Shown here: positions 7,067-25,267 of the stretch, piece by piece
Numbering within the stretch: position 1 is the first letter of the stretch
Layout of the letters: the number at the start of each line of letters is the position of its first letter
Virus record (IMG/VR): IMGVR_UViG_3300042691_027157
Location: 1 to 35,735 of that record
Origin: a virus
Reading direction: 5' to 3' (one strand)
DNA: 35,735 nt
Made by a program: the position numbers and the translations under genes
Notes under the pieces: model-generated
Told to the model about the DNA's origin: nothing
The model's input: only the letters and a program-made list of their open reading frames with translations
Database searches by the model: none

Positions 7067-8662
7067 GTGTGGTTCCCACGCAAGGCTAGCAGAGCGCAGA
7101 AACTAGCGTCTAAAGGCGACACTACACCCGCCCCTATCGGCGGGTTGAATGTTGTCGACAGTATTGTCACTATGCCGGTGACGGACGCACTTATTCTGCG
7201 CAACATGTTCCCGCAGCCGTACGGGGTGCTCGTTCGTAAAGGATTCAAAGAGCACGCCATCAACCTGCCGGACATCGTAGAAACTCTGATGTCTTACAAT
7301 AATCAGACAGGCACGAACGTTCTTCTGGCTGCGTGCAACACCGAGATTTACGACGTTACGACGGCTGGAGACTACGCTGCGGCAACGCCGAAATATACTG
7401 GATTGACGAACGCAAGGTGGCAGCATGTCAATTTCGCTAACTCCGCAGGCTCTCATCTTGTAGCGTTCAACGGCGCAGATGATGGTATCTGGTACAATGG
7501 CACTACGTATGCTCGACTGACGGCGGGTAACGGCACAGATTCTGGCACGTACAACGGCATTGATCCTGCAGATGTGATTCACTGCTGTGTACATCAGCGT
7601 CGACTGTGGGTGGTGCCTGTCGGCTCTACGAGCGCCTATTACCTTCCGGTCGATTCTGTCTTCGGCGTAGTGGCCGAGTTCGACTTCGGTCCATTGATGA
7701 GTGCCGGTGGATACATCATGGCTCTGGCCACATGGTCTATTGACTCTGGTGTGGGGGCTGACGATCATCTCGCAGTTATCACTAGCGAAGGTCAAGTGAT
7801 CGTGTATCGCGGTACGAACCCTGCCACTGCTGCTACCTGGGCGCTTGTGGGTGTGTATACGCAAGGACGCCCCATAGGCCGTCGCTGCGCCGTGAAATAC
7901 GCGGGCGACTTGGCGTTTCTGTCTGAATTCGGGCTACAGTCGCTAACACAGTCTCTCGTATCCACTAAAGTAGAGAACACGCCAGACACTGCGTACACAT
8001 ACAAGATTCAACCACTCATCTCTGACCTCATCACTGTGTATGGGTCCCTCTTTGGGTGGCAAATACTTGTGTTCCCACAGGTAAACATGTTAGTGTTAAA
8101 CATCCCAGTCTCAGAGACTCAGAGTCTTCAGCTTGCGATGAACACTATCACCAGAGCGTGGTGTCAGTTTGACGGTCTGAATGCCATCTGCTGGGAAACG
8201 TTCTACAGCGGGGCGTTCTTTGGCAGTGATACGAAGGTTTACCGCTTCTGGGAAGGTGCTCGTGACGACGCTGACTCTGCCGGTAACGGTGGCGTCAAAG
8301 TTTCTTTCGAAGCACAGACGGCGTTCAACTACTTTAAGACGCCAGGGCGTCAAAAGCATTTCAAGATGGCTCGCCCCACATTTGTCGGTAACGGGGCTCC
8401 AGGACACTACTTCGCAGTTAACACTGATTTCGATCTGAGCACAGTGTTCGGTTCTGCGTTGTCCACTGGTAGTTCAGCTGGAATCTGGAATGTGTCCAAT
8501 TGGGATCAAGGTGTGTGGGCGGGCAGCGACACGACATACAAGCCGTGGGGAAGCGTGGAAGGCATCGGCACCGCAGGGTCACTGCGAGTGAAAGGCGATG
8601 CTTCCGGTGAGGCACTGTGGACCTCTAACGATTGGGTTTACGAGGTCGGGGGAATGATCTAA
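7067..8662 (+). CDS. Tail hub / DNA-stabilisation protein (P22 gp10-like)
   Basis: A 531-residue protein with GTG start at 7067; GGAG at 7057-7060 gives 6 bases spacing. An overlapping ATG at 7065 is in another frame. The opening (KGDTTPAPIGGLNVVDS, then DALILRNMFPQPYGVLVRKGF) is typical of phage stabilisation and tail hub proteins. It is followed by repeats of beta strands with Gly-Asn-Thr turns (ARWQHVNFANSAGSHLVAFNG), consistent with a beta-propeller hub, and the conserved segment DLAFLSEFGLQSLTQ. It should close the portal channel and carry the tail appendages. It overlaps the next gene by one base. Confidence 0.65.
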   Translation: MWFPRKASRAQKLASKGDTTPAPIGGLNVVDSIVTMPVTDALILRNMFPQPYGVLVRKGFKEHAINLPDIVETLMSYNNQTGTNVLLAACNTEIYDVTTAGDYAAATPKYTGLTNARWQHVNFANSAGSHLVAFNGADDGIWYNGTTYARLTAGNGTDSGTYNGIDPADVIHCCVHQRRLWVVPVGSTSAYYLPVDSVFGVVAEFDFGPLMSAGGYIMALATWSIDSGVGADDHLAVITSEGQVIVYRGTNPATAATWALVGVYTQGRPIGRRCAVKYAGDLAFLSEFGLQSLTQSLVSTKVENTPDTAYTYKIQPLISDLITVYGSLFGWQILVFPQVNMLVLNIPVSETQSLQLAMNTITRAWCQFDGLNAICWETFYSGAFFGSDTKVYRFWEGARDDADSAGNGGVKVSFEAQTAFNYFKTPGRQKHFKMARPTFVGNGAPGHYFAVNTDFDLSTVFGSALSTGSSAGIWNVSNWDQGVWAGSDTTYKPWGSVEGIGTAGSLRVKGDASGEALWTSNDWVYEVGGMI

Positions 8663-16341: not shown

Positions 16342-16540
16342 ACAAAGCTTTGTAGAACAGATGTCTCTCTTGTGCTGCGAGTGCGTAAAGTTTGAGCAGA
16401 GTTTCGTGGTCAAATAGATAGACAGGTACTCCGTACGCGAGATGCACCATTGGAGTTTTGAACGCATTTCTGTAGTCCTCTTCAATCTTTAGCTTGATCC
16501 ACGTATCCACGTCCCGTTGGATCCCCGGCACTGCACCCAT
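16313..16540 (-). CDS. Possible 75-residue protein
   Basis: The stretch after about residue 10 looks protein-like (DTWIKLKIEEDYRNAF, then HETLLKLYALAAQERHLFYK), with ordinary codons and helical periodicity. The start is uncertain: ATG 16540, GTG 16510 and ATG 16450 are all in frame and none has a clear ribosome site. The first two overlap the end of the DUF3310 gene. Location suggests it is the last or next-to-last gene of the hypermodification operon. No family recognised. Confidence 0.4.
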   Translation of the reverse strand: MGAVPGIQRDVDTWIKLKIEEDYRNAFKTPMVHLAYGVPVYLFDHETLLKLYALAAQERHLFYKALYERSELVRY

Positions 16541-17036
16541 GAACAGATGCCGGGCTGACTCCTGCGGGCACGATGAAACGTTCCCGGCAGTGTTTGCACC
16601 GCCACCAGTCACCTTCCTGTACAAAGCCTTCAGTTTCGAAGTGATAAGGAACTTCATAGTGCGGCATCTCCCTCGTAGTGAAAGTTTTAAACTCTTCAGA
16701 GTTAGTCGGCTTTACTGACGGAACTTCCACGGCTGCGTTAGTGAATATGACTCCTGACCGTACCGCCTCCAGGTACTTTTCGAGGAAGTGCTGCGCCTTC
16801 TCAAGATCTTGCAAGCCGTTTTTCTTCTTCCAGCGCGTCACATATTTCGTGATCTGAGCTTGGAAATAGTCAAGGTCATTGGCAATCACATAGTCCCAAT
16901 GCTGAATGTTACTGCGGTAGTGCGAGCCTGCGACTTGTTTACTGTTGGCGGTGTTATTCAACGTTCTCTCCTGCATTGCTCTTTCACGTTCATTGGGGGG
17001 TGCGAACACAGAGGGGTGATACTCATTCGCTGCCAT
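16482..17036 (-). CDS. DUF3310 protein with C-terminal zinc ribbon
   Basis: A 184-residue protein. Residues about 30-95 carry the DUF3310 signature: KQVAGSHYRSNIQHWDYV, the segment LDYFQAQITKYVTRWKKKNG and DLEKAQHFLEKYL. This phage family has sometimes been labelled a nucleotide-kinase-like protein, without firm biochemistry. The C-terminal part has DWWRCKHCRERF and a further Cys, a probable zinc ribbon not present in all members. The ATG at 17036 has AGAGG about 7 bases upstream; an internal ATG at residue 21 is possible. It overlaps the end of the HD-nucleotidase gene by 14 bases and lies downstream of the thymidylate-synthase-like gene, in keeping with a nucleotide-metabolism role. Confidence 0.7.
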   Translation of the reverse strand: MAANEYHPSVFAPPNERERAMQERTLNNTANSKQVAGSHYRSNIQHWDYVIANDLDYFQAQITKYVTRWKKKNGLQDLEKAQHFLEKYLEAVRSGVIFTNAAVEVPSVKPTNSEEFKTFTTREMPHYEVPYHFETEGFVQEGDWWRCKHCRERFIVPAGVSPASVHGCSAGDPTGRGYVDQAKD

Positions 17037-17511
17037 TAGATACCTCTCGTAGAAGTTTCACTGCTGATGCCGTTGGTGCTTTGGTACTGAGTGCATGGTA
17101 TAACACTCCGCACATATGACGCAAGTGTTGATTACCTAGGTCTCGCTGATACAAGCAGAACCTATAGAGTTCGAATCCATCGGCCCACTTAAGGATTTCT
17201 TTGTCTTTCTTCGAAAGAGGGATACCGCTAATTTCAAGCTCATCCTCTACCACAGCTTCCAACTTTTCTAGAAGGTTGTTAAGATCTTTCCATCTCCACT
17301 TGGCGGGGGCGGGAACATCTCCCAGTATCCCCTCGGCCACGTCGTGCAGAAGAGCTTTGGCGACCAAATCCAAAGTCAAACACTCTTCCGCGATCTTGTA
17401 CACGGTGACCGCCACCCCCCACGAATGATCGGCTACCGTTTGCTCCCCGATGATGGCCATGGCGTGACATCGTTTCACTCGTCCATATTGCCACACTTGA
17501 TCATACTGCAT
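17023..17511 (-). CDS. HD-domain 5'-deoxynucleotidase (YfbR-like)
   Basis: A 162-residue enzyme expected to remove phosphate from deoxynucleoside 5'-monophosphates in the cytoplasm. The residues of the YfbR family are in place: Arg11, His29 (VADHSWGV), His56-Asp57 (LLHDVAEG), Glu60, Asp65 (GDVPAPAKW) and Asp111 (KWADGFELY). ATG 17511 is chosen because AGGAGAG lies 6 bases upstream; the longer frame from 17586 would run far into the ThyA-like gene. The relative DatZ of Z-genome phages is a dATP triphosphohydrolase, so triphosphatase activity is also possible. Next to a dUMP-modifying enzyme the most economical role is draining dTMP or another normal nucleotide so that the modified one is used. 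Confidence 0.8.
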   Translation of the reverse strand: MQYDQVWQYGRVKRCHAMAIIGEQTVADHSWGVAVTVYKIAEECLTLDLVAKALLHDVAEGILGDVPAPAKWRWKDLNNLLEKLEAVVEDELEISGIPLSKKDKEILKWADGFELYRFCLYQRDLGNQHLRHMCGVLYHALSTKAPTASAVKLLREVSNGSE

Positions 17512-18475
17512 TGTTTTCTCTCCTAAGAATCCACTCAGTGCATGCGCGCTTCCAATCTTCTGCTTTGCACTCCTGTAGCTCTGCAAGACCGTTAGATGTT
17601 TTGGTTTTTCTAGCCTCCCACGCCGTCATAATCGGCACAGCCACTTCACGGAAGAAAGGGTCGCCGTACCCGCTCTTGTTCAGAGGACTGCTCATGAACT
17701 CTGCAAGATCTTCGAACCATTGTCCAAGAGTTACGCGAATCAACGGGTAGGGTTCAACTCCGGCGGTGTACGGGTTTTCCCACCACTCTATCGGGGGCGT
17801 GTACATTTCTCGGTTGGGAATGTTGTCGTAGATGTGCAGGTTGTTTGTGAACTGAAAATACCTGCCACACAGCATGTTCAATCCTCTGGCGATCACTTCT
17901 TGCAGCATGCTGAAATGTACGACATTGCTCCCGCATGCGCCCCAGATAAGATCATTGCTGCGGTTGCACACCGTCATGTCTAGCGCTCCGTTAACGACAC
18001 GGAAATAGACGTGAGTGTTACATGGAAGGTCTTTGCTTGCCACCAAAGAGTCTTCGGACGGGTCCCACATCCCGATGACGGCTCGCCTGGAGTGCGGGTC
18101 CCTCTCGAGTATGTTGCAAACATCCATGATTTGGTCTACGCGAAAATGCCTGCGCCAGCGATGCCCGTAGGCTCCGTGCAGACTAAAGCCGTCATCGCTG
18201 TAGTCTTTGAATTTCTTGTTGAAATACGCCGGCCACGCCACGTCGTTTTGGCCGTTCAGCATCCACAACGCCTCCATCAAATGGAAGAACGGGTTAGCGT
18301 CGCGGGCAGGCCAGAACAGTACCCGCTCTTCTGGTTGGCGGTACTCCAGCAGTACCGGACTGGCGATTGTCATGACGGGACCGTTCCTAGATGGCTCCGT
18401 ACGCGCCCACGTAGGAAACGCTGAAAGTGCTTCAGACAAGACGTTGTTCACGTTTCTACCGCAGAAGTGAATCAT
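17501..18475 (-). CDS. ThyA-family dUMP (hydroxy)methylase
   Basis: A 324-residue member of the thymidylate synthase superfamily. The aligned active site is complete: Glu68 (MEALWMLNG), Arg130-Arg131 (PHSRRAV), nucleophile Cys152 (LPCNTHV), Arg172-Ser173 and Asp175, Asn184 for uracil recognition, and the His and Tyr of LHIYDN. Asn rather than Asp at 184 points to dUMP, not dCMP. The sequence is far from host ThyA (for example GACGSN in place of LPFN, with one inserted residue). Similar phage enzymes make 5-hydroxymethyl-dUMP. The neighbours (5-hmdU-kinase helical-domain protein, glycosyltransferase, HD nucleotidase) favour hydroxymethylation over ordinary dTMP synthesis. ATG 18475 has GGAGAG upstream. 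Confidence 0.8.
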   Translation of the reverse strand: MIHFCGRNVNNVLSEALSAFPTWARTEPSRNGPVMTIASPVLLEYRQPEERVLFWPARDANPFFHLMEALWMLNGQNDVAWPAYFNKKFKDYSDDGFSLHGAYGHRWRRHFRVDQIMDVCNILERDPHSRRAVIGMWDPSEDSLVASKDLPCNTHVYFRVVNGALDMTVCNRSNDLIWGACGSNVVHFSMLQEVIARGLNMLCGRYFQFTNNLHIYDNIPNREMYTPPIEWWENPYTAGVEPYPLIRVTLGQWFEDLAEFMSSPLNKSGYGDPFFREVAVPIMTAWEARKTKTSNGLAELQECKAEDWKRACTEWILRRENNAV

Positions 18476-18487
18476 ACTGCTCTCCAG

Positions 18488-19303
18488 TTAGTATCGTTGA
18501 CGAGGGGTGCCTTCCCCGAGCTTTACCCGCATATATTTGTCGTACTCGCACAAGCAGTTCTGAATGTCTTGGTTGCAGAGTTCAGAGATAACTTCTGTCG
18601 CCAATCCGCGAGCCACGTGAAAGTTCTCCATAAACTCTTTGTCAGACAGCTTGTACGGCGAGGGTTTGCCGAGCAGTCGTGCTAGTCCACGACGGCTTCC
18701 CGGCCCAGGCACCACAAAGGTATACCAGTCTTCGGTCAAATGCCACGGAGAATTTGTGGTGTTCTTAGCGTCCGCAACTATCTGTCCTGCGATAAAACTT
18801 CCCACCCCGTCGAACGCGCGTAGCGCCCCGTACAGTGCGCGTAAGGGGGTAGGCCATGGCCCCTGCGCGCAACGCGTTGCAATGGGGTCTAAAACGGTCC
18901 TAGCCACATAGACTGGCTTGCTTACGGCGTGCCCATTGGTACCTACTATGTACGCGCTAGACCAACTCTTGAGCCCCTTCAAAGTGCGCTGTTGAATGAC
19001 GTTAACGAACCAATCCGGGCGCCACTCGTATGGGAAGTCTAGCACGTTCAGCGTCTCTGGCCAGTTAACTAGGCGGGCGATGGTCATCGCAAGAATGAAG
19101 TTAGGATGACTGGGGTGGGACCAATTCTTGCGAATCCACTGAGTCACTTTGTCATCTTCACGACGTACGTTGCAGAACCGATACGAATTCAAGATTGGAT
19201 CGTCTGTCCACGGTCGAGGCAGACCAGCATTTTTCTCCAGTCGAACGATTTCACGTTCGTTAATCCAGTGTTGAAACAGATTTTCACGCTCTTGCTGATT
19301 CAT
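18488..19303 (-). CDS. DNA base hypermodification protein, 5-hmdU DNA kinase helical-domain type
   Basis: A 271-residue protein. The N-terminal part matches the helical domain found in 5-hydroxymethyl-dU DNA kinases and related alpha-glutamyl/putrescinyl-thymine pyrophosphorylases: an ER..VRLEKNAG start, then PWTDDPILNSYRFCNVRRED, DKVTQWIRKNW and a later GSFIAGQIVAD helix. Comparative genomics by Iyer and co-workers placed these in a DNA-glycosylase-like superfamily that works on modified pyrimidines in DNA. No P-loop kinase domain is fused. The acting chemistry is therefore unknown; base flipping with transfer onto an activated 5-substituent is an inference. It overlaps the glycosyltransferase by 20 bases and precedes the ThyA-like gene by 12. 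ATG 19303 is preferred to GTG 19306. Confidence 0.8.
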   Translation of the reverse strand: MNQQERENLFQHWINEREIVRLEKNAGLPRPWTDDPILNSYRFCNVRREDDKVTQWIRKNWSHPSHPNFILAMTIARLVNWPETLNVLDFPYEWRPDWFVNVIQQRTLKGLKSWSSAYIVGTNGHAVSKPVYVARTVLDPIATRCAQGPWPTPLRALYGALRAFDGVGSFIAGQIVADAKNTTNSPWHLTEDWYTFVVPGPGSRRGLARLLGKPSPYKLSDKEFMENFHVARGLATEVISELCNQDIQNCLCEYDKYMRVKLGEGTPRQRY

Positions 19304-20432
19304 CACACACTCCTAACAAAGTTTTGATGGTGTCTAGTCTGTCGTGCTGTTTCACATACTCTTCATTGTTCTGTTGAATCTCTGTGAACACGGGCTCTTC
19401 AAAGTTCAAAATCGTATCAACTAGAGTTTTCTCCTGCACCGGCACGTAATTCACCCACGCTTTCATTCCAGTTCCCTCTACGAAGGAATGCTTGCAGAGG
19501 GGGACTGCACCTTTCAGCATGGCTTCTATGACGATTCTGTTTATCTGGCCTCCAGTGCTTTTCTCAGACATGTCTACAAGAAATTTACTGTCTTCCAAAC
19601 AGAAATCTCTTTGGGTTTTAGACATGGAAGGATTCCAAACCATACCGGACGCCAGTGCGGTCTCCCAGATGGGAACACCGTCAGAGTTTTTGAACTTGTC
19701 GGGGCACTTGTCTTTACTCGCCATGTACCTGCGCGCGATACCGTCTCCCCCTAACACGATTCGCCACCCCCGCGCCAATCGGGGAACTTGTCTAACGAGT
19801 TCTTCAGCTTTTTTCCACGGCTTGAATGTTTGAATCATACAAATCTGATCTAGCTTGTCAGACCAAGGGACTATGTTTTTCGTGGAAAGATCGTGTCCGC
19901 TAGACACGATCACTTTGGGGTAGTCTGGCGGTATGCTGTCGTAACTGATTTGCTGTACGCACGCCCACAAATCAATGTGGGGAGCTATCTCACGCGCCCA
20001 GGGGTGTCGTTTGAACATGTGATCGTCTCTAACGAACGCCACCTGTTTAGAGGTCAAATAGTCAAACATCTGCTTGATGTACTGAGGATGTTTCTCATAC
20101 GTGCTGTTGTTCAACCCGTACAGTGCGCCCCATACGACTAGATCTGCCGAGTTGCACTCGTCAATGAACTCGCCCACACTGTATGAATTTTCCAGATCTA
20201 TGACGTGAGCCCCTTTCCAGCCTTTGACTGGATGCACCCACATGTCTGTCGCTTCGCTGTACGTATAGTTCTCATCTGGGGCGGGACGTTGCTTTTGCGA
20301 ATTGAATGTGGGGCTCAGGTAGAAGAACGTAACATCTACACCGAGTTCTTTGGCAGCAGCAACGAGGTTTTCTGAACTCGTTATGATTCCACCGAGGTCT
20401 ATGCCTTTCGGCACTACGTAAATCATTTTCAC
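19284..20432 (-). CDS. GT-B glycosyltransferase, probably acting on modified DNA bases
   Basis: A 382-residue protein with the two-domain layout of nucleotide-sugar glycosyltransferases. Residues 1-30 show the glycine-rich acceptor-side loop (DLGGIITSSENLVAAAKELG), the middle contains a strand-turn VLGGDGIARRYM, and the donor-binding end has STGGQINRIVIEAMLKGAVPL, the usual Glu-containing motif of GT4-like enzymes. There is no membrane segment. GTG 20432 has GGAGAG 7 bases upstream, while ATG 20426 is too far from it. The two following genes concern modified thymidine, so the substrate is probably hydroxymethyl-uracil or a derivative in DNA. Capsular or LPS sugar transfer cannot be excluded. 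Confidence 0.7.
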   Translation of the reverse strand: MKMIYVVPKGIDLGGIITSSENLVAAAKELGVDVTFFYLSPTFNSQKQRPAPDENYTYSEATDMWVHPVKGWKGAHVIDLENSYSVGEFIDECNSADLVVWGALYGLNNSTYEKHPQYIKQMFDYLTSKQVAFVRDDHMFKRHPWAREIAPHIDLWACVQQISYDSIPPDYPKVIVSSGHDLSTKNIVPWSDKLDQICMIQTFKPWKKAEELVRQVPRLARGWRIVLGGDGIARRYMASKDKCPDKFKNSDGVPIWETALASGMVWNPSMSKTQRDFCLEDSKFLVDMSEKSTGGQINRIVIEAMLKGAVPLCKHSFVEGTGMKAWVNYVPVQEKTLVDTILNFEEPVFTEIQQNNEEYVKQHDRLDTIKTLLGVCDESARA

Positions 20433-20490: not shown

Positions 20491-20952
20491 TTACTCGGCA
20501 GCCGCTTCTGCCACAGCTTCTTTTTCCTTCTTCACAACAGAAACACCTTCAATTTCGATGAACTTACGGAGCACCATGGTGCGGAGGTTGTCCCCGGCAA
20601 TCTTGTACTCTTTGGTTTCACCTTTGACGGTGGCGGTGACAGACTTGCCCAGAACTTCAGAGGTGTTCTCCGCTTCATACACCGCCTTCAGCATGGCTTC
20701 GCGCTTGCTACCGGCACGAAGATTCGCCGCTTCGGCAGAAGCCAGAAGCTTCGTGATTTTCTTGTTGGCGTAAGAATCGGTGCGGGAAACCGTCTCATCA
20801 GACGGGGCCTTCTTCTCGCGCACCTTTTTCTCCGGCGCGCTACCGTCTGCGTTCACAGGGGCGGCGGGCTTCGCGGCACCCTTGCGCACCTTTTTCTCCG
20901 GCTTCACTTCTTGGGATTGCGGTTCTGCGACAACAGCTTCTTGGTCAGACAT
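20491..20952 (-). CDS. Lys/Ala-rich basic protein, first gene of the modification operon
   Basis: A 153-residue protein starting at ATG 20952 with AAGGAGAG upstream. The first 60 residues are low-complexity, with two copies of a PEKKVR(K/E) unit separated by Ala/Pro segments, much like histone-type tails. Residues about 60-140 form a folded domain with DSYANKKITKLLASAEAANLRAGSKR and VTATVKGETKEYKIAG. The C-terminus returns to Lys/Glu/Ala repeats. It may bind DNA or act as a nucleoid-like protein; no family is recognised. Promoter-proximal position suggests high expression, and the strong hairpin after it separates it from the glycosyltransferase. Confidence 0.6.
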   Translation of the reverse strand: MSDQEAVVAEPQSQEVKPEKKVRKGAAKPAAPVNADGSAPEKKVREKKAPSDETVSRTDSYANKKITKLLASAEAANLRAGSKREAMLKAVYEAENTSEVLGKSVTATVKGETKEYKIAGDNLRTMVLRKFIEIEGVSVVKKEKEAVAEAAAE

Positions 20953-21039: not shown

Positions 21040-21210
21040 CTACTCGATTTTTTGCACGGCGATACAGGTGTAGCTGGCGTTTCCGGATTTAACGCGAACA
21101 CCACCCTTTCGTTCACACTTTTCTATCTCTTTGGACTCTAGGTACACGGCAGTTCCGAAGAGTCCTATTCCCAGAGCAAGAATCCCTATGACTACAAGCC
21201 AATCTTTCAT
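21040..21210 (-). CDS. 56-residue single-span membrane protein
   Basis: A short gene whose ATG overlaps the helicase stop (ATGA), indicating translational coupling. Residues 4-23 form one membrane helix (WLVVIGILALGIGLFGTAVY), followed by a charged segment and two cysteines (KCERKGG and YTCIAV) that could form a disulphide if the tail faces the periplasm. Codons and the coupled start support it despite its size. Small proteins of this design are common in phages and none of their roles is settled. Confidence 0.7.
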   Translation of the reverse strand: MKDWLVVIGILALGIGLFGTAVYLESKEIEKCERKGGVRVKSGNASYTCIAVQKIE

Positions 21211-22601
21211 GCTTTTAACGCCTCCGATAGAGCACGTTGTGTGCGATCTTTACCAAGCAACATCTTGGCTACCTTCACGTCCATGGTGCGTTCCGCTAGG
21301 ATCCTATGGACAATGACAAAGTTATTCTGCTGTCCTTGTCGCCAGATTCGTGCAATAACCTGGTCATAGAGTTCGAGGTCCCAAGTGATACCAAACATGA
21401 TGATATGGTGGCAGGCTCCTTGTAGTCCGTCGATACCGTGCCCCATACTTGCTGGATGTCCGTATAGTACGGGAATGTTCCCACTAGAGAAATTCTGAAC
21501 CGCGTCCACCACGGACTTGCCGGACATTCCCGTAAGATTAGGGGCGGGTAAGACTTTGCTGAGTCTGTCGTAATCATGCTTGTACTCATATGTGATGAGT
21601 ACAGGCTGGCCAGATAACTCCTCCACCAAATCAAGGACGGCTCGTATCTTCTCATCGTGGAATACCTCGTACGCGGGGGGAATCGTGTACATCGCACCGT
21701 TGGCAATCTGCCGGCACTTACCCCCGGCCACCGCAGCGTTCGCGGCAATGTAGGGGTCATCGCCAAGCATCACAAGAAAATCATCTTCCATCTTCTTGTA
21801 GATTGCACGTGCACTCTCTGGCAAGCGCACCATCACATCTTGTGTGATCAGCTCTGGCATGTTCAGGTAGTCTTCTGCCCGCATGCGCAGCGTTTTGCCC
21901 TTAATGCGCTCGACAATCTGTTCAAACGCCCCCGGCCGTGGGATCCAATTGAACCCTGCTAAATCTTCCTCGAAGAATTCTCGCTTGAAATGTGTTATGA
22001 ATCTACCGAGCGAAGTGCCGAGGTCTACGATGAACAACTGCCCGAACAAGTCCAACAATCCGTTGGGGGCGGGGGTGCCTGTAAGAATCCAACGCCGTTT
22101 GAATTTCGCAAGCGCAGGTTTGATGCTTTTGAATCGTTCTGTGTTCGTGTGCTTGAACTTGGTGGACTCATCCACGCACAGCACATCGGCGTTAATGTTG
22201 AGCCACCTGTTCTGATCTTTGTCAAACAGCCACTTCACAGCATCTACGTTGATGATGTAAATGTCGGCGTCGACCAGCGTGGCCTCCTCTTTGTCGCGCC
22301 CATGTACGATCACGTAACGCAGGTGCTGGAACTCTGCCCACTTTTTGATTTCATTAGGCCACGTGACGTAACACGGGCGCAGCGGAGCAATGACAAGCAT
22401 GCGCTTGACTAGCCCCGCTTTCTTGAGTAGTGAGAACGCCGCCAGTGTTACGCTAGTCTTACCCAGCCCTGGGTCTAGGAGCAGACCCACCCCCGGCTCC
22501 TGCAGCATCATCTGTATCGCGCGTTTCTGATAATCCTTCGGACTCCAAGAAGGTTTGGAGGAGTTGGATTCCAAGACTTGGGGTGTCGACGACGAAGACA
22601 T
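21207..22601 (-). CDS. SNF2/DEAD-like DNA helicase
   Basis: A 464-residue superfamily 2 ATPase. Walker A is DPGLGKTSV (about residues 43-51), the DExH-type box is VDESTKFK, motif III is LTGTPAPNG, and motif VI lies in QVIARIWRQGQ, with the Q-rich end typical of SNF2 proteins. The short length means only the two RecA-like domains are present. It starts at ATG 22601 with AAAGGAGAG upstream, and its first 48 codons lie inside the VRR-NUC gene in another frame. In phages this protein is found beside VRR-NUC nucleases and PolA, so fork remodelling, recombination or initiation are likely roles. It is coupled to the small membrane protein downstream. Confidence 0.85.
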   Translation of the reverse strand: MSSSSTPQVLESNSSKPSWSPKDYQKRAIQMMLQEPGVGLLLDPGLGKTSVTLAAFSLLKKAGLVKRMLVIAPLRPCYVTWPNEIKKWAEFQHLRYVIVHGRDKEEATLVDADIYIINVDAVKWLFDKDQNRWLNINADVLCVDESTKFKHTNTERFKSIKPALAKFKRRWILTGTPAPNGLLDLFGQLFIVDLGTSLGRFITHFKREFFEEDLAGFNWIPRPGAFEQIVERIKGKTLRMRAEDYLNMPELITQDVMVRLPESARAIYKKMEDDFLVMLGDDPYIAANAAVAGGKCRQIANGAMYTIPPAYEVFHDEKIRAVLDLVEELSGQPVLITYEYKHDYDRLSKVLPAPNLTGMSGKSVVDAVQNFSSGNIPVLYGHPASMGHGIDGLQGACHHIIMFGITWDLELYDQVIARIWRQGQQNNFVIVHRILAERTMDVKVAKMLLGKDRTQRALSEALKA

Positions 22602-22827: not shown

Positions 22828-23450
22828 AGACCACCCTTCTTTTTGGAGTAGGCGCACCATGCGCAGTGTTTTCCAGGATTGGGCTCGAACGTTTTGTCTT
22901 GCGCCATCACCGCCACCCTGCTCTCATAGTACTCTTTGAGAGACGGCACTTGATCGCGTATCGTGGTTCTGCTTACAGGCATGAGCTGAGGCTGGTCTAG
23001 ATAAATGGCGCCCGACAAAGCTTGCTCCGCTTTCGGGTACAGAATCAAACTTGCCAGTGAGTACAGCATCAGTTGATCATAGTGTGAGTCGTAGAATTTA
23101 CCAGTTTTGAAATCCCACACTTCCACATGGTTGTCACGATCCACCAGTACGTCGATCACTACGGTGGACCAGTACCCCTCTTTCTCACACGGCTCCCACT
23201 TGTCGTTGAAATACAGGGCGCGCTCCGCGTAAGTCTTGGGAGTTTTCAAGCTACTGATGAAGTCGGCGTGGTGTATCGTCTCCGGCAGCACCTGAATCTC
23301 ATTTTTGATAAACGCCTCGCCAATGGCGTGAGTGTCTGTGCCCCTCTGCGCGGCCTTACCGGGCGGATCTGGAATACGAAGATTGTACCGGAAGTTATAC
23401 GACGCAGGGCATTTCTCGTACTTACTGAGTTTGGAGTACGACCAGTTCAT
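22815..23450 (-). CDS. PD-(D/E)XK exonuclease, Cas4/RecB-like with Fe-S cysteines
   Basis: A 211-residue nuclease. The start (WSYSKLSKYEKCPASYNFRY) contains the first cysteine, and the end (HCAWCAYSKKKGGLC) supplies three more, as in Cas4/AddB-type proteins that hold a 4Fe-4S cluster. The nuclease centre is formed by the His near GTDTHAIGEAF, the Asp of VVIDVLVD and EVWDFKTGK. Such phage enzymes process DNA ends during recombination or host DNA breakdown. The start overlaps the polymerase stop by 4 bases and the end overlaps VRR-NUC, so all are made from one message. Confidence 0.85.
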   Translation of the reverse strand: MNWSYSKLSKYEKCPASYNFRYNLRIPDPPGKAAQRGTDTHAIGEAFIKNEIQVLPETIHHADFISSLKTPKTYAERALYFNDKWEPCEKEGYWSTVVIDVLVDRDNHVEVWDFKTGKFYDSHYDQLMLYSLASLILYPKAEQALSGAIYLDQPQLMPVSRTTIRDQVPSLKEYYESRVAVMAQDKTFEPNPGKHCAWCAYSKKKGGLCRY

Positions 23451-25267
23451 ACGTAATCCTCCAGGTCAGCCCAATTGGGACCGATGTAACCATCACTTAG
23501 CATGGGCACATCAAACGCAGGGGAGAGCATAGCCTCCCTGAGCAGTGCCATCTCAGATGCTGCGTGCTCCTTAGGAGCGCAAATGTTGATTTCGTCGTAG
23601 ACCGTAGTCAAGAACGTACCGTGCCGCTTAATCTGGTCATAGTTGATGAGCGCCTCCTTGGTGCAGTCTGCGGCACTGCCCTGAATGAGATAGTTCAGCA
23701 GCTTGTAGTGATACTCACGATACTTGCCAGTCTTGGGATCGATGCCAGAGGGCTCGCTGTAATACATTCGCCCGCCCCAGGTGCGCATGGGCAGGTTATT
23801 CCTGCCACGATAAGTGAGCTCGTTTTGCAGAGTACGAATGCCGGGGAACGTTTTCAAATAGGCGTTGCGCACTTCATGAGCTTCTGCAACGGAGGTTCCC
23901 ATGCGCTCCGCCATGGTGGCGGCACCCGCCCCGTAGATAATGCTGAATGCAGTAATTTTCACGTATTTGCGAGGGAGGTCAATGCCAGCGTTCTGTTTGA
24001 TGAGCTCCCGGGCTAGGTCGTGGAAGTCAGTGTCAGGTGCCTGTTGATACTGCTCCAGCATGGTGCCCTCGGCATAGTGGGCAAGGATGCGCAGTTCTTG
24101 TTGACTGTAGTCACGCTTCAGCCACACACAACCTTTCTCGGGAAGAAGGTACTGCTTCATGTGTGGTAGCTCAGGATACCCTGGGGGGATGTCGAAGTCA
24201 AACTCGTTGGGAACGTTCGTGTAGTTGGGGGAGTCGCAACTCACCCGCCCCGTGCGCGTTCCTGCCGTGTTACCTTTGTCACCGCGTGCCTGCCGCACCT
24301 GATTCCAGTTAGGGTGCATCCGACCATTGTTGGCGGTAGCCATCGCATGCCACGGTCGCATGAACGTGCTAAGACACGTCGACAGCGCGCCACGGTAGCG
24401 CAGCAGGTTGCGCAGGGCAGGGTGTGCAATGCCCTGTTCAAGCGCCCCTTTGGCGGTGCTACGCCGCCCCGTGGGGGTAAGTACCCAGGTGCCGGCCATG
24501 CCAGCACGCTCGACAGCGTCTGCAACCTGAACATCCTTGTCGAAATCTACACTGTCGTCGCCCAACAACCTGCGCATGTCGTTTTCGATGCGAACAAGCA
24601 CCTGCTCGTATTTCTCAAGATCGTGGTGCAGCCGCTCAAGATCTACCCGCACCCCGTTGCGCTCTGCTTTCATGAGCACCGGCAGAAGCAGTTGCTCTCG
24701 TCGGTACGCAGGCTCCATACCGTTCTCTACAATCTTAGGCCACAGAAGATTATGTAGCCCCTCGGTACGGTCTACGTCACCGATAGCGTATTCACCAACC
24801 AACCCTCCAGGGGCTTTGCAGATGTATGCGCCGGCAGTTTTCTTTGTAGCTCCGGGTACGTTGGCGAGAATCCAGCTGTGCAACTCGTCTTGCTCGTCTG
24901 GGGGCATGTTCAACAACCGAGCGGCGGAAGGTTTCAGACTGAGATTGGTGCTGTGTGGGTCGTTGAGGAATAGAAGGTACTGTGTGTCGTGTAGCCTTTT
25001 TGGATCAATATCTGCGCCCATCCACGCTTGTGCGACAGCGTGATCAAATTTAGCGTGGTGACACAGCACGTCTCCAAATGCTCCTGAGTACACATTGGCG
25101 ACCGCCGCCTTGCCCTGCTCTTCAGTACAGTTGTTCCCTGTGGGGTGCCCCCATGCAAGATACTCCCCAGGTTGACCGGGCAGTTTCAAAGCGACTCCTA
25201 CGGGTTTCGGTGGAAATCTGGAAACATTACCTTCAATGGCTTCAGTTTCAAAGTCTGCTGTAATCAT
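23447..25267 (-). CDS. DNA polymerase, family A with 3'-5' exonuclease
   Basis: A 606-residue replicative polymerase of the phage PolA type, without a 5' nuclease domain. The proofreading motifs are ADFETE at the N-terminus, HHAKFD, and YAIGDVD. The polymerase motifs are A (LKRDYSQQELRILAHYA), B (RKYVKITAFSIIYGAGA) and C (TTVYDEI). In motif B the Phe of the O helix is kept but the usual Asn and Gly next to it are Ala and Ser; in motif C the usual His before Asp-Glu is Tyr. These changes could tolerate unusual nucleotides. ATG 25267 overlaps the stop of the small membrane protein. Confidence 0.95.
   Translation of the reverse strand: MITADFETEAIEGNVSRFPPKPVGVALKLPGQPGEYLAWGHPTGNNCTEEQGKAAVANVYSGAFGDVLCHHAKFDHAVAQAWMGADIDPKRLHDTQYLLFLNDPHSTNLSLKPSAARLLNMPPDEQDELHSWILANVPGATKKTAGAYICKAPGGLVGEYAIGDVDRTEGLHNLLWPKIVENGMEPAYRREQLLLPVLMKAERNGVRVDLERLHHDLEKYEQVLVRIENDMRRLLGDDSVDFDKDVQVADAVERAGMAGTWVLTPTGRRSTAKGALEQGIAHPALRNLLRYRGALSTCLSTFMRPWHAMATANNGRMHPNWNQVRQARGDKGNTAGTRTGRVSCDSPNYTNVPNEFDFDIPPGYPELPHMKQYLLPEKGCVWLKRDYSQQELRILAHYAEGTMLEQYQQAPDTDFHDLARELIKQNAGIDLPRKYVKITAFSIIYGAGAATMAERMGTSVAEAHEVRNAYLKTFPGIRTLQNELTYRGRNNLPMRTWGGRMYYSEPSGIDPKTGKYREYHYKLLNYLIQGSAADCTKEALINYDQIKRHGTFLTTVYDEINICAPKEHAASEMALLREAMLSPAFDVPMLSDGYIGPNWADLEDYV

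Follow-up and report, generated by a model that had tools for sequence, protein, structure and literature searches.

A glycosyltransferase in the kinase slot of a predicted phage thymidine-hypermodification operon

The locus described here raises the question of which chemistry completes a phage thymidine-hypermodification pathway when a glycosyltransferase stands where the kinase is expected. It lies in IMG/VR virus record IMGVR_UViG_3300042691_027157, whose 35,735 nucleotides (35.7 kb) were analyzed as a whole and are referred to as the window. An initial annotation, made from the letters of the sequence, had proposed a four-gene operon, and all four adjacent genes are present on the minus strand: a GT-B glycosyltransferase (GT; 19284-20432), an HMUDK_hel-family protein (HEL; 18488-19303), a predicted ThyA-family dUMP hydroxymethylase (TS; 17501-18475), and a predicted YfbR-like HD 5'-deoxynucleotidase (HD; 17023-17511). 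The HD start required revision, as the ATG at 17511, preceded by AGGAGAG, is likelier than 17586. We assign a probability of roughly 0.7 to the reading that this operon makes a sugar-decorated 5-hydroxymethyluracil (hmU) in phage DNA.

The DNA of phage M6 contains 5-(2-aminoethyl)-dU (dU, deoxyuridine), which is thought to be made from 5-hydroxymethyldeoxyuridine (5-hmdU) via a 5-hmdU DNA kinase (PMC6449724). M6 gp55 (HEL), gp58 (TS, 47% identity), gp59 (HD), and gp61 (DUF3310) are homologous to window genes and follow the same order, and both blocks reside in a replication module with DNA polymerase A. M6 differs in encoding the P-loop 5-hmdU kinase gp54, which matches PF18748, and the amino-acid:DNA transferase (ADDT) gp51, which matches PF18724; the window contains neither, and its GT occupies the kinase slot. 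A pyridoxal-phosphate enzyme and a radical-SAM enzyme of M6 are also missing from the window. Beyond the Pfam names and the restriction papers, the M6 gene roles are presumed ones. In a six-frame scan of the window, the sole plausible Walker A motif belonged to the primase-helicase, and neither the kinase profiles nor the ADDT profile (PF18724) gave a match, in agreement with the initial annotation, which had seen no P-loop kinase. Pfam searches with PF18909 and PF18748 matched nothing anywhere and were uninformative; a kinase profile built here, which found three positive controls, was used instead. Applied to 17 GT-type records searched whole, it found no kinase in 16 and only a 28-residue P-loop match in the 17th. 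As a separate observation, the 5-hmdU kinase family carries the label "terminase small subunit" in M6 gp54 (L012:7414-7977) and in PHROG 800, likely a long-lived misannotation.

Comparison across loci shows that kinase and GT replace one another. Loci were collected with HEL, TS, and GT profiles, annotated with profiles built here, and cleared of duplicates. Among 166 distinct loci with both HEL and TS, 53 carry the kinase, 111 a GT, none both, and two neither. The 111 GT loci comprise 50 with the TET-associated glycosyltransferase (TAGT), a family of DNA sugar transferases found in T-even phages (PMC13216743), 43 with a GT-B of the window type, and a remainder with slot families F2, F3, or F4 or with two GTs. 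About a dozen of the 111 are weaker calls because F2, F3, and F4 were named GTs by position and appearance, F4 having a near-threshold TAGT match and F2 and F3 no Pfam match. ADDT is restricted to the kinase loci, where it occurs in 31 of 53, and is found in none of the other 113, including all GT loci. The initial annotation had called HEL a "5-hmdU-DNA-kinase helical-domain" protein; the family match stands, but the name does not describe function, as HEL in this sample is accompanied by a GT without a kinase about twice as often as by a kinase. On a quick HEL tree (147 rows, LG+G4), at least 9 changes between kinase and GT are needed, and well supported branches force 6 of these; counting all partner types raises the number to 28. 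The mutual exclusion of slot GT and kinase in these sequences points to a widespread, putative branch of phage DNA hypermodification.

The exchange can be followed gene by gene in IMG/VR relatives found through HEL, which are collinear with the window. Five of them (L005, L006, L008, L009, and L010) read ADDT-SNF2-kinase-HEL-TS, then HD and DUF3310 where the contig extends, and the window reads SNF2-(small gene)-GT-HEL-TS-HD. In another five (L001, L003, L004, L007, and L011), a TAGT (PF20691 or PHROG 842) adjoins HEL in place of the kinase, that of L001 being the N-terminal domain of a radical-SAM fusion. Collinearity with the nearest relative, L020, extends from polymerase to endolysin (identity 72% for HEL, 72% for the helicase, and 67% for TS), and L020 holds a TAGT at the exact position of the window GT-B. 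These comparative data strengthen the case for an M6-like thymidine-hypermodification operon with a GT and without a 5-hmdU kinase well beyond what a single window could offer.

The window GT had no Pfam or PHROG match at E 0.1, nor did the TAGT profile (PF20691) match anywhere in the window. The AlphaFold model is nonetheless a GT-B fold with a predicted local distance difference test score (pLDDT) of 91.8 and a predicted template modeling score of 0.90. It has two Rossmann-like domains and a GT4-type C-terminal site, and a profile match to GlgA was obtained; a homologue, in L106, passes the Pfam cut-offs for glycosyl-transferase group 1, so that the GT-B assignment, originally made by eye, held up. 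Structural alignment returned 900 chains at Z ≥ 8, with GT-B enzymes in the top rows. The five best matches were all T4 DNA alpha-glucosyltransferase (AGT; Z 28.6-29.2, 333-338 residues, root-mean-square deviation 3.5-3.7), followed by GT4-type enzymes at Z 26.6; Foldseek ranked HepE and AGT jointly at the top. With 13% sequence identity to T4 AGT, the window GT falls outside its sequence family, and the likeness is one of fold. The two systems also differ in substrate, as T4 AGT acts on DNA whose 5-hydroxymethylcytosine (hmC) comes from a dCMP hydroxymethylase, whereas the window TS is predicted to be of the dUMP type. TAGT, the slot enzyme of about 50 related loci, is of the GT-A type and does not match the window GT in sequence.

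A search for close relatives with the window GT alone found nothing among phages and viral contigs, and only a family profile reached its relatives; GT-B homologues from L176 and L173 had no match in phage records. The profile was built from six window-type GTs and used no HEL or TS patterns, but its seeds came from HEL/TS loci. It matched 58 viral loci and one contig of a metagenome-assembled genome. Grouped into 48 distinct sets, these have HEL in 47, TS in 47, and the kinase in none (within about 6 kb). Asp136, Lys204, Lys207, and Asp287 are invariant in the family alignment. No sugar-nucleotide gene was recognized among the window proteins searched, and a host nucleotide-sugar is therefore the likely donor.

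The TS matches Thymidylat_synt (E 1e-21) and PHROG 5131 (E 2e-110). In the ThyA family, Asn marks dUMP specificity and Asp marks dCMP specificity. The Asn184 that the initial annotation had read as uracil-specific is Asn in every aligned TS, apart from one sequence gapped there, and Cys152 is invariant across the TS proteins of the 166 loci; the window enzyme thus has both the Asn and the catalytic Cys of the M6/ViI-type dUMP-hydroxymethylase clade. Asn184 is found in loci with the kinase as well as in those with a GT, so dUMP should be the starting point of both branches. The HD protein belongs to PF12917 (YfbR-like; E 2e-12, 47.5 bits against a cut-off of 25.9).

HEL is the constant element beside the variable slot. 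A profile search, named in the initial annotation as one that could refute it, places 18488-19303 in the hypermodification family PF18723 (HMUDK_hel; E 1e-35, 123.9 bits against a curated cut-off of 25). The model is all-helical and helix-hairpin-helix (HhH)-like (pLDDT 96.6), without the ATP-binding P-loop of a 5-hmdU DNA kinase, and the sequence has no match among PDB sequences. Foldseek gave no significant match, its leading rows being 8-oxoguanine glycosylase and PaMx11 gp46. On structural re-alignment, the best match was PaMx11 gp46, the 5-PmdU glycinyltransferase PUGT (Z 10.5 over 220 residues); HhH DNA glycosylases and the queuosine salvage enzyme DUF2419 ranked next, and the top rows lay at Z 8-10.5. 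A Z of about 10 in a helical protein is suggestive but proves nothing; the case for an HhH DNA-glycosylase-like fold draws more strength from how consistent the list is. PUGT, the nearest solved fold, acts on modified thymidine in DNA, but shares 6% identity with HEL and depends on a kinase, absent from the window, because it uses a phosphorylated base. Across 68 sequences, R18, R49, D52, F171, D193, G201, G203, G207, C253, E254, and K257 are invariant. D193 lies 26 residues past the hairpin glycine, a spacing that we take to be near that of the HhH-GPD catalytic Asp, as counted against endonuclease III. Homology between HEL and ADDT was considered and is not claimed: the motif order is alike ("GfGpf...D", "xxxLCexxK"), but the profile probability is 3.7%. 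Solitary HEL genes also occur in contigs of 455-463 kb (L028:6998-7831 and L065:6992-7825), where the surroundings lack TS, kinase, and GT; that of L065 adjoins a nucleoside-hydrolase-like gene. As HEL is kept whether its partner is the kinase or a GT from one of several unrelated families, we propose that it has a DNA-side role, binding DNA and presenting 5-hmdU.

From these elements a pathway can be proposed. The ThyA-type enzyme would hydroxymethylate dUMP, a step supported by homology, and the HD enzyme may remove dTMP or dTTP such that the polymerase incorporates 5-hmdU. HEL would then bind DNA and present the extrahelical 5-hmdU base, upon which the AGT-like GT-B would move a sugar from a host nucleotide-sugar onto the hydroxymethyl group, replacing the phosphorylation carried out by an M6-type kinase. 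Homology supports the fold of this last enzyme; we infer its action on DNA and its use of a sugar. The product would be a base-J-like nucleotide that probably resists restriction. Base J of kinetoplastids belongs to the same expected product class, glycosylated 5-hydroxymethyluracil, but is made by oxidizing T in DNA (JBP), whereas the window route is predicted to use a nucleotide-level hydroxymethylase. For T4 beta-glucosyltransferase to glucosylate 5hmU in duplex DNA, the base must be mispaired with G (PMC4111573). A phage GT can therefore act poorly on a 5hmU:A pair, which suggests a plausible purpose for a helper such as HEL.

A broader proposal casts HEL as a general HhH module that presents 5-hmdU and licenses interchangeable effectors (kinase, TAGT, AGT-like GT-B, and other GTs), such that a one-gene swap would switch thymine hypermodification between phosphorylation and glycosylation. 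The window and many relatives would then have DNA with a glycosyl-hydroxymethyluracil not described before, and in some of them tandem GTs would add two sugars. We advance this tentatively, at somewhat less than even odds. HEL could instead be a catalyst that, in the manner of the related amino-acid:DNA transferases, activates 5-hmdU or transfers a group to it, with the GT acting before or after, which would make the final base more than glycosyl-hmU. The rank of PUGT as top structural match is in keeping with catalysis, and invariant D193, with its HhH-GPD spacing, along with R18, R49, D52, C253, E254, and K257, exceeds what plain DNA binding needs. However, HEL is unchanged beside two chemically unlike partners, no gene for a cofactor or donor travels with it, and the comparison with the ADDT profile was not significant; we consider a catalytic HEL rather unlikely.

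The other alternatives concern the GT, the kinase, and the base. Phages do carry GT4-type surface-glycan enzymes, many of which share this fold, so the GT might modify RNA, a protein, or a glycan of the host surface, with 5-hmdU as the sole change in the DNA; its family, however, is almost confined to HEL/TS neighborhoods, it sits in the kinase slot, and the family that replaces it there, TAGT, transfers sugars to DNA, all of which makes a non-DNA target improbable. An ordinary M6-like pathway, with a kinase supplied by the host or encoded in phage sequence that the window lacks, would be compatible with an incomplete window, but the GT fills the slot, kinase and GT never occur together in the 166 loci, and nearly all GT-type records searched whole have no kinase, so that we regard this as very improbable. 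Least credible is a cytosine system like that of T4, with hydroxymethyl-dCMP as the product of the TS homologue and glycosyl-hmC as that of the GT: a likeness to the hmC glycosyltransferases of T-even phages is seen in both candidate GT types, but the dUMP-type Asn184 runs throughout the TS group, and M6, the nearest studied relative, modifies thymidine (PMC6449724).

Several observations weigh against a sugar-decorated hmU as the product. The window is an incomplete phage genome, since its 5' edge falls within the portal gene and no terminal repeat was seen. In the structural comparison, AGT leads other GT4 enzymes by just 2-3 Z units, and a common fold proves no function. Identity between the window GT and the rest of its family is only 21-28%, and the residue before invariant Asp136, His in 34 of 35 aligned members, is Arg135 in the window GT, so its activity is not certain. 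In phage ctUhy936, the order is TAGT-TS-HD with no HEL in the stretch read, and HEL may therefore not be essential. Finally, Fisher p-values on the co-occurrence ignore shared ancestry, which is why switches were counted on the tree.

The initial annotation had suggested a product not yet described, which is only partly right. Genomics had already led to a prediction of hmU glycosylation in phages, as cited in PMC4111573, and a 2022 report describes pelagiphages that have a TS, an aGPT-PPlase1, a glucosyltransferase, and a deoxynucleotidase close to PolA, with the comment that the M6 system may thereby be broadened (PMC9599517). The GT of these HTVC023P-type pelagiphages is annotated as the PHROG-842/TAGT kind, whereas that of the window is an AGT-like GT-B, and the passages on HTVC023P-type pelagiphages do not describe replacement of a kinase (PMC9599517). 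A 2026 survey found solitary TAGTs in 288 of 753 phage genomes and suggested unknown transferases (PMC13216743). Our literature search, which did not include the field's main papers, found no description of the kinase-for-GT replacement or of the window GT family.

Cultured phages bring the prediction of glycosylated hmU within reach of a direct test. Brevibacterium phage LuckyBarnes carries TS, two TAGTs, and HEL consecutively, and Microbacterium phage Quartz carries HEL, a TS-family gene, a TAGT, and a gene annotated as thymidylate kinase; no 5-hmdU DNA kinase was found in the complete record of either. The part most worth testing is the shared core with swappable effectors. If the proposal is true, sugar decoration of thymine would be a phage strategy as common as phosphorylation-based hypermodification and built on the same core, and the poorly understood HMUDK_hel protein would gain a concrete, testable, kinase-independent role. 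It would also predict novel DNA sugar transferases with 5-hydroxymethyluracil as their substrate, of use as labeling tools, and bear on phage evasion of restriction and host recognition of modified DNA.

Some relatives carry additional genes around the slot. L217, L223, L226, and L227 have a window-type GT-B and a TAGT together with HEL and TS, which suggests two successive sugars on the base, by analogy with the gentiobiosyl-hmC of T2/T6. Of slot families F2 and F3 (L022:6048-7004 and L043:6010-7011), F3 weakly resembles the window GT profile, and F2 is distantly related to proteins of large enterobacterial phages. A radical-SAM/SPASM protein, confined to GT loci among the 166, occurs in L001 (3324-5063, the TAGT fusion), L037, L039, L043, L045, L057, L082, L147, L153, and L185, and may possibly modify the sugar or base further. 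In L040, a sulfotransferase-like protein (7840-8622, weak Pfam match) lies among HEL, the F2-type slot gene, and TS, and could sulfate the sugar.

The GT, HEL, TS, HD, and DUF3310 genes of the window extend on the minus strand from an SNF2-type helicase to the lysis module on the opposite strand. All five are coupled or almost abutting, and each is preceded by its own good Shine-Dalgarno sequence (GGAGAG for the GT). The DUF3310 gene (16482-17036, minus strand; PF11753) forms the end of the conserved block and follows HD in most relatives. The SNF2-type helicase (21207-22601, minus strand) is the upstream limit of the variable slot, a boundary conserved in relatives; between it and the GT sits a small protein with no family match (20491-20952, minus strand), and relatives have small open reading frames at the equivalent site. 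Megablast of 16.3-28 kb against phage records gave no match, no RNA families or tRNAs were found in the window, and promoter-like sites, rarer than expected by chance, were not used. DNA polymerase A (23447-25267, minus strand) belongs to the same replication module, and the early module also encodes a pyrimidine dimer DNA glycosylase of the T4 DenV kind (PF03013; 27057-27497, minus strand).

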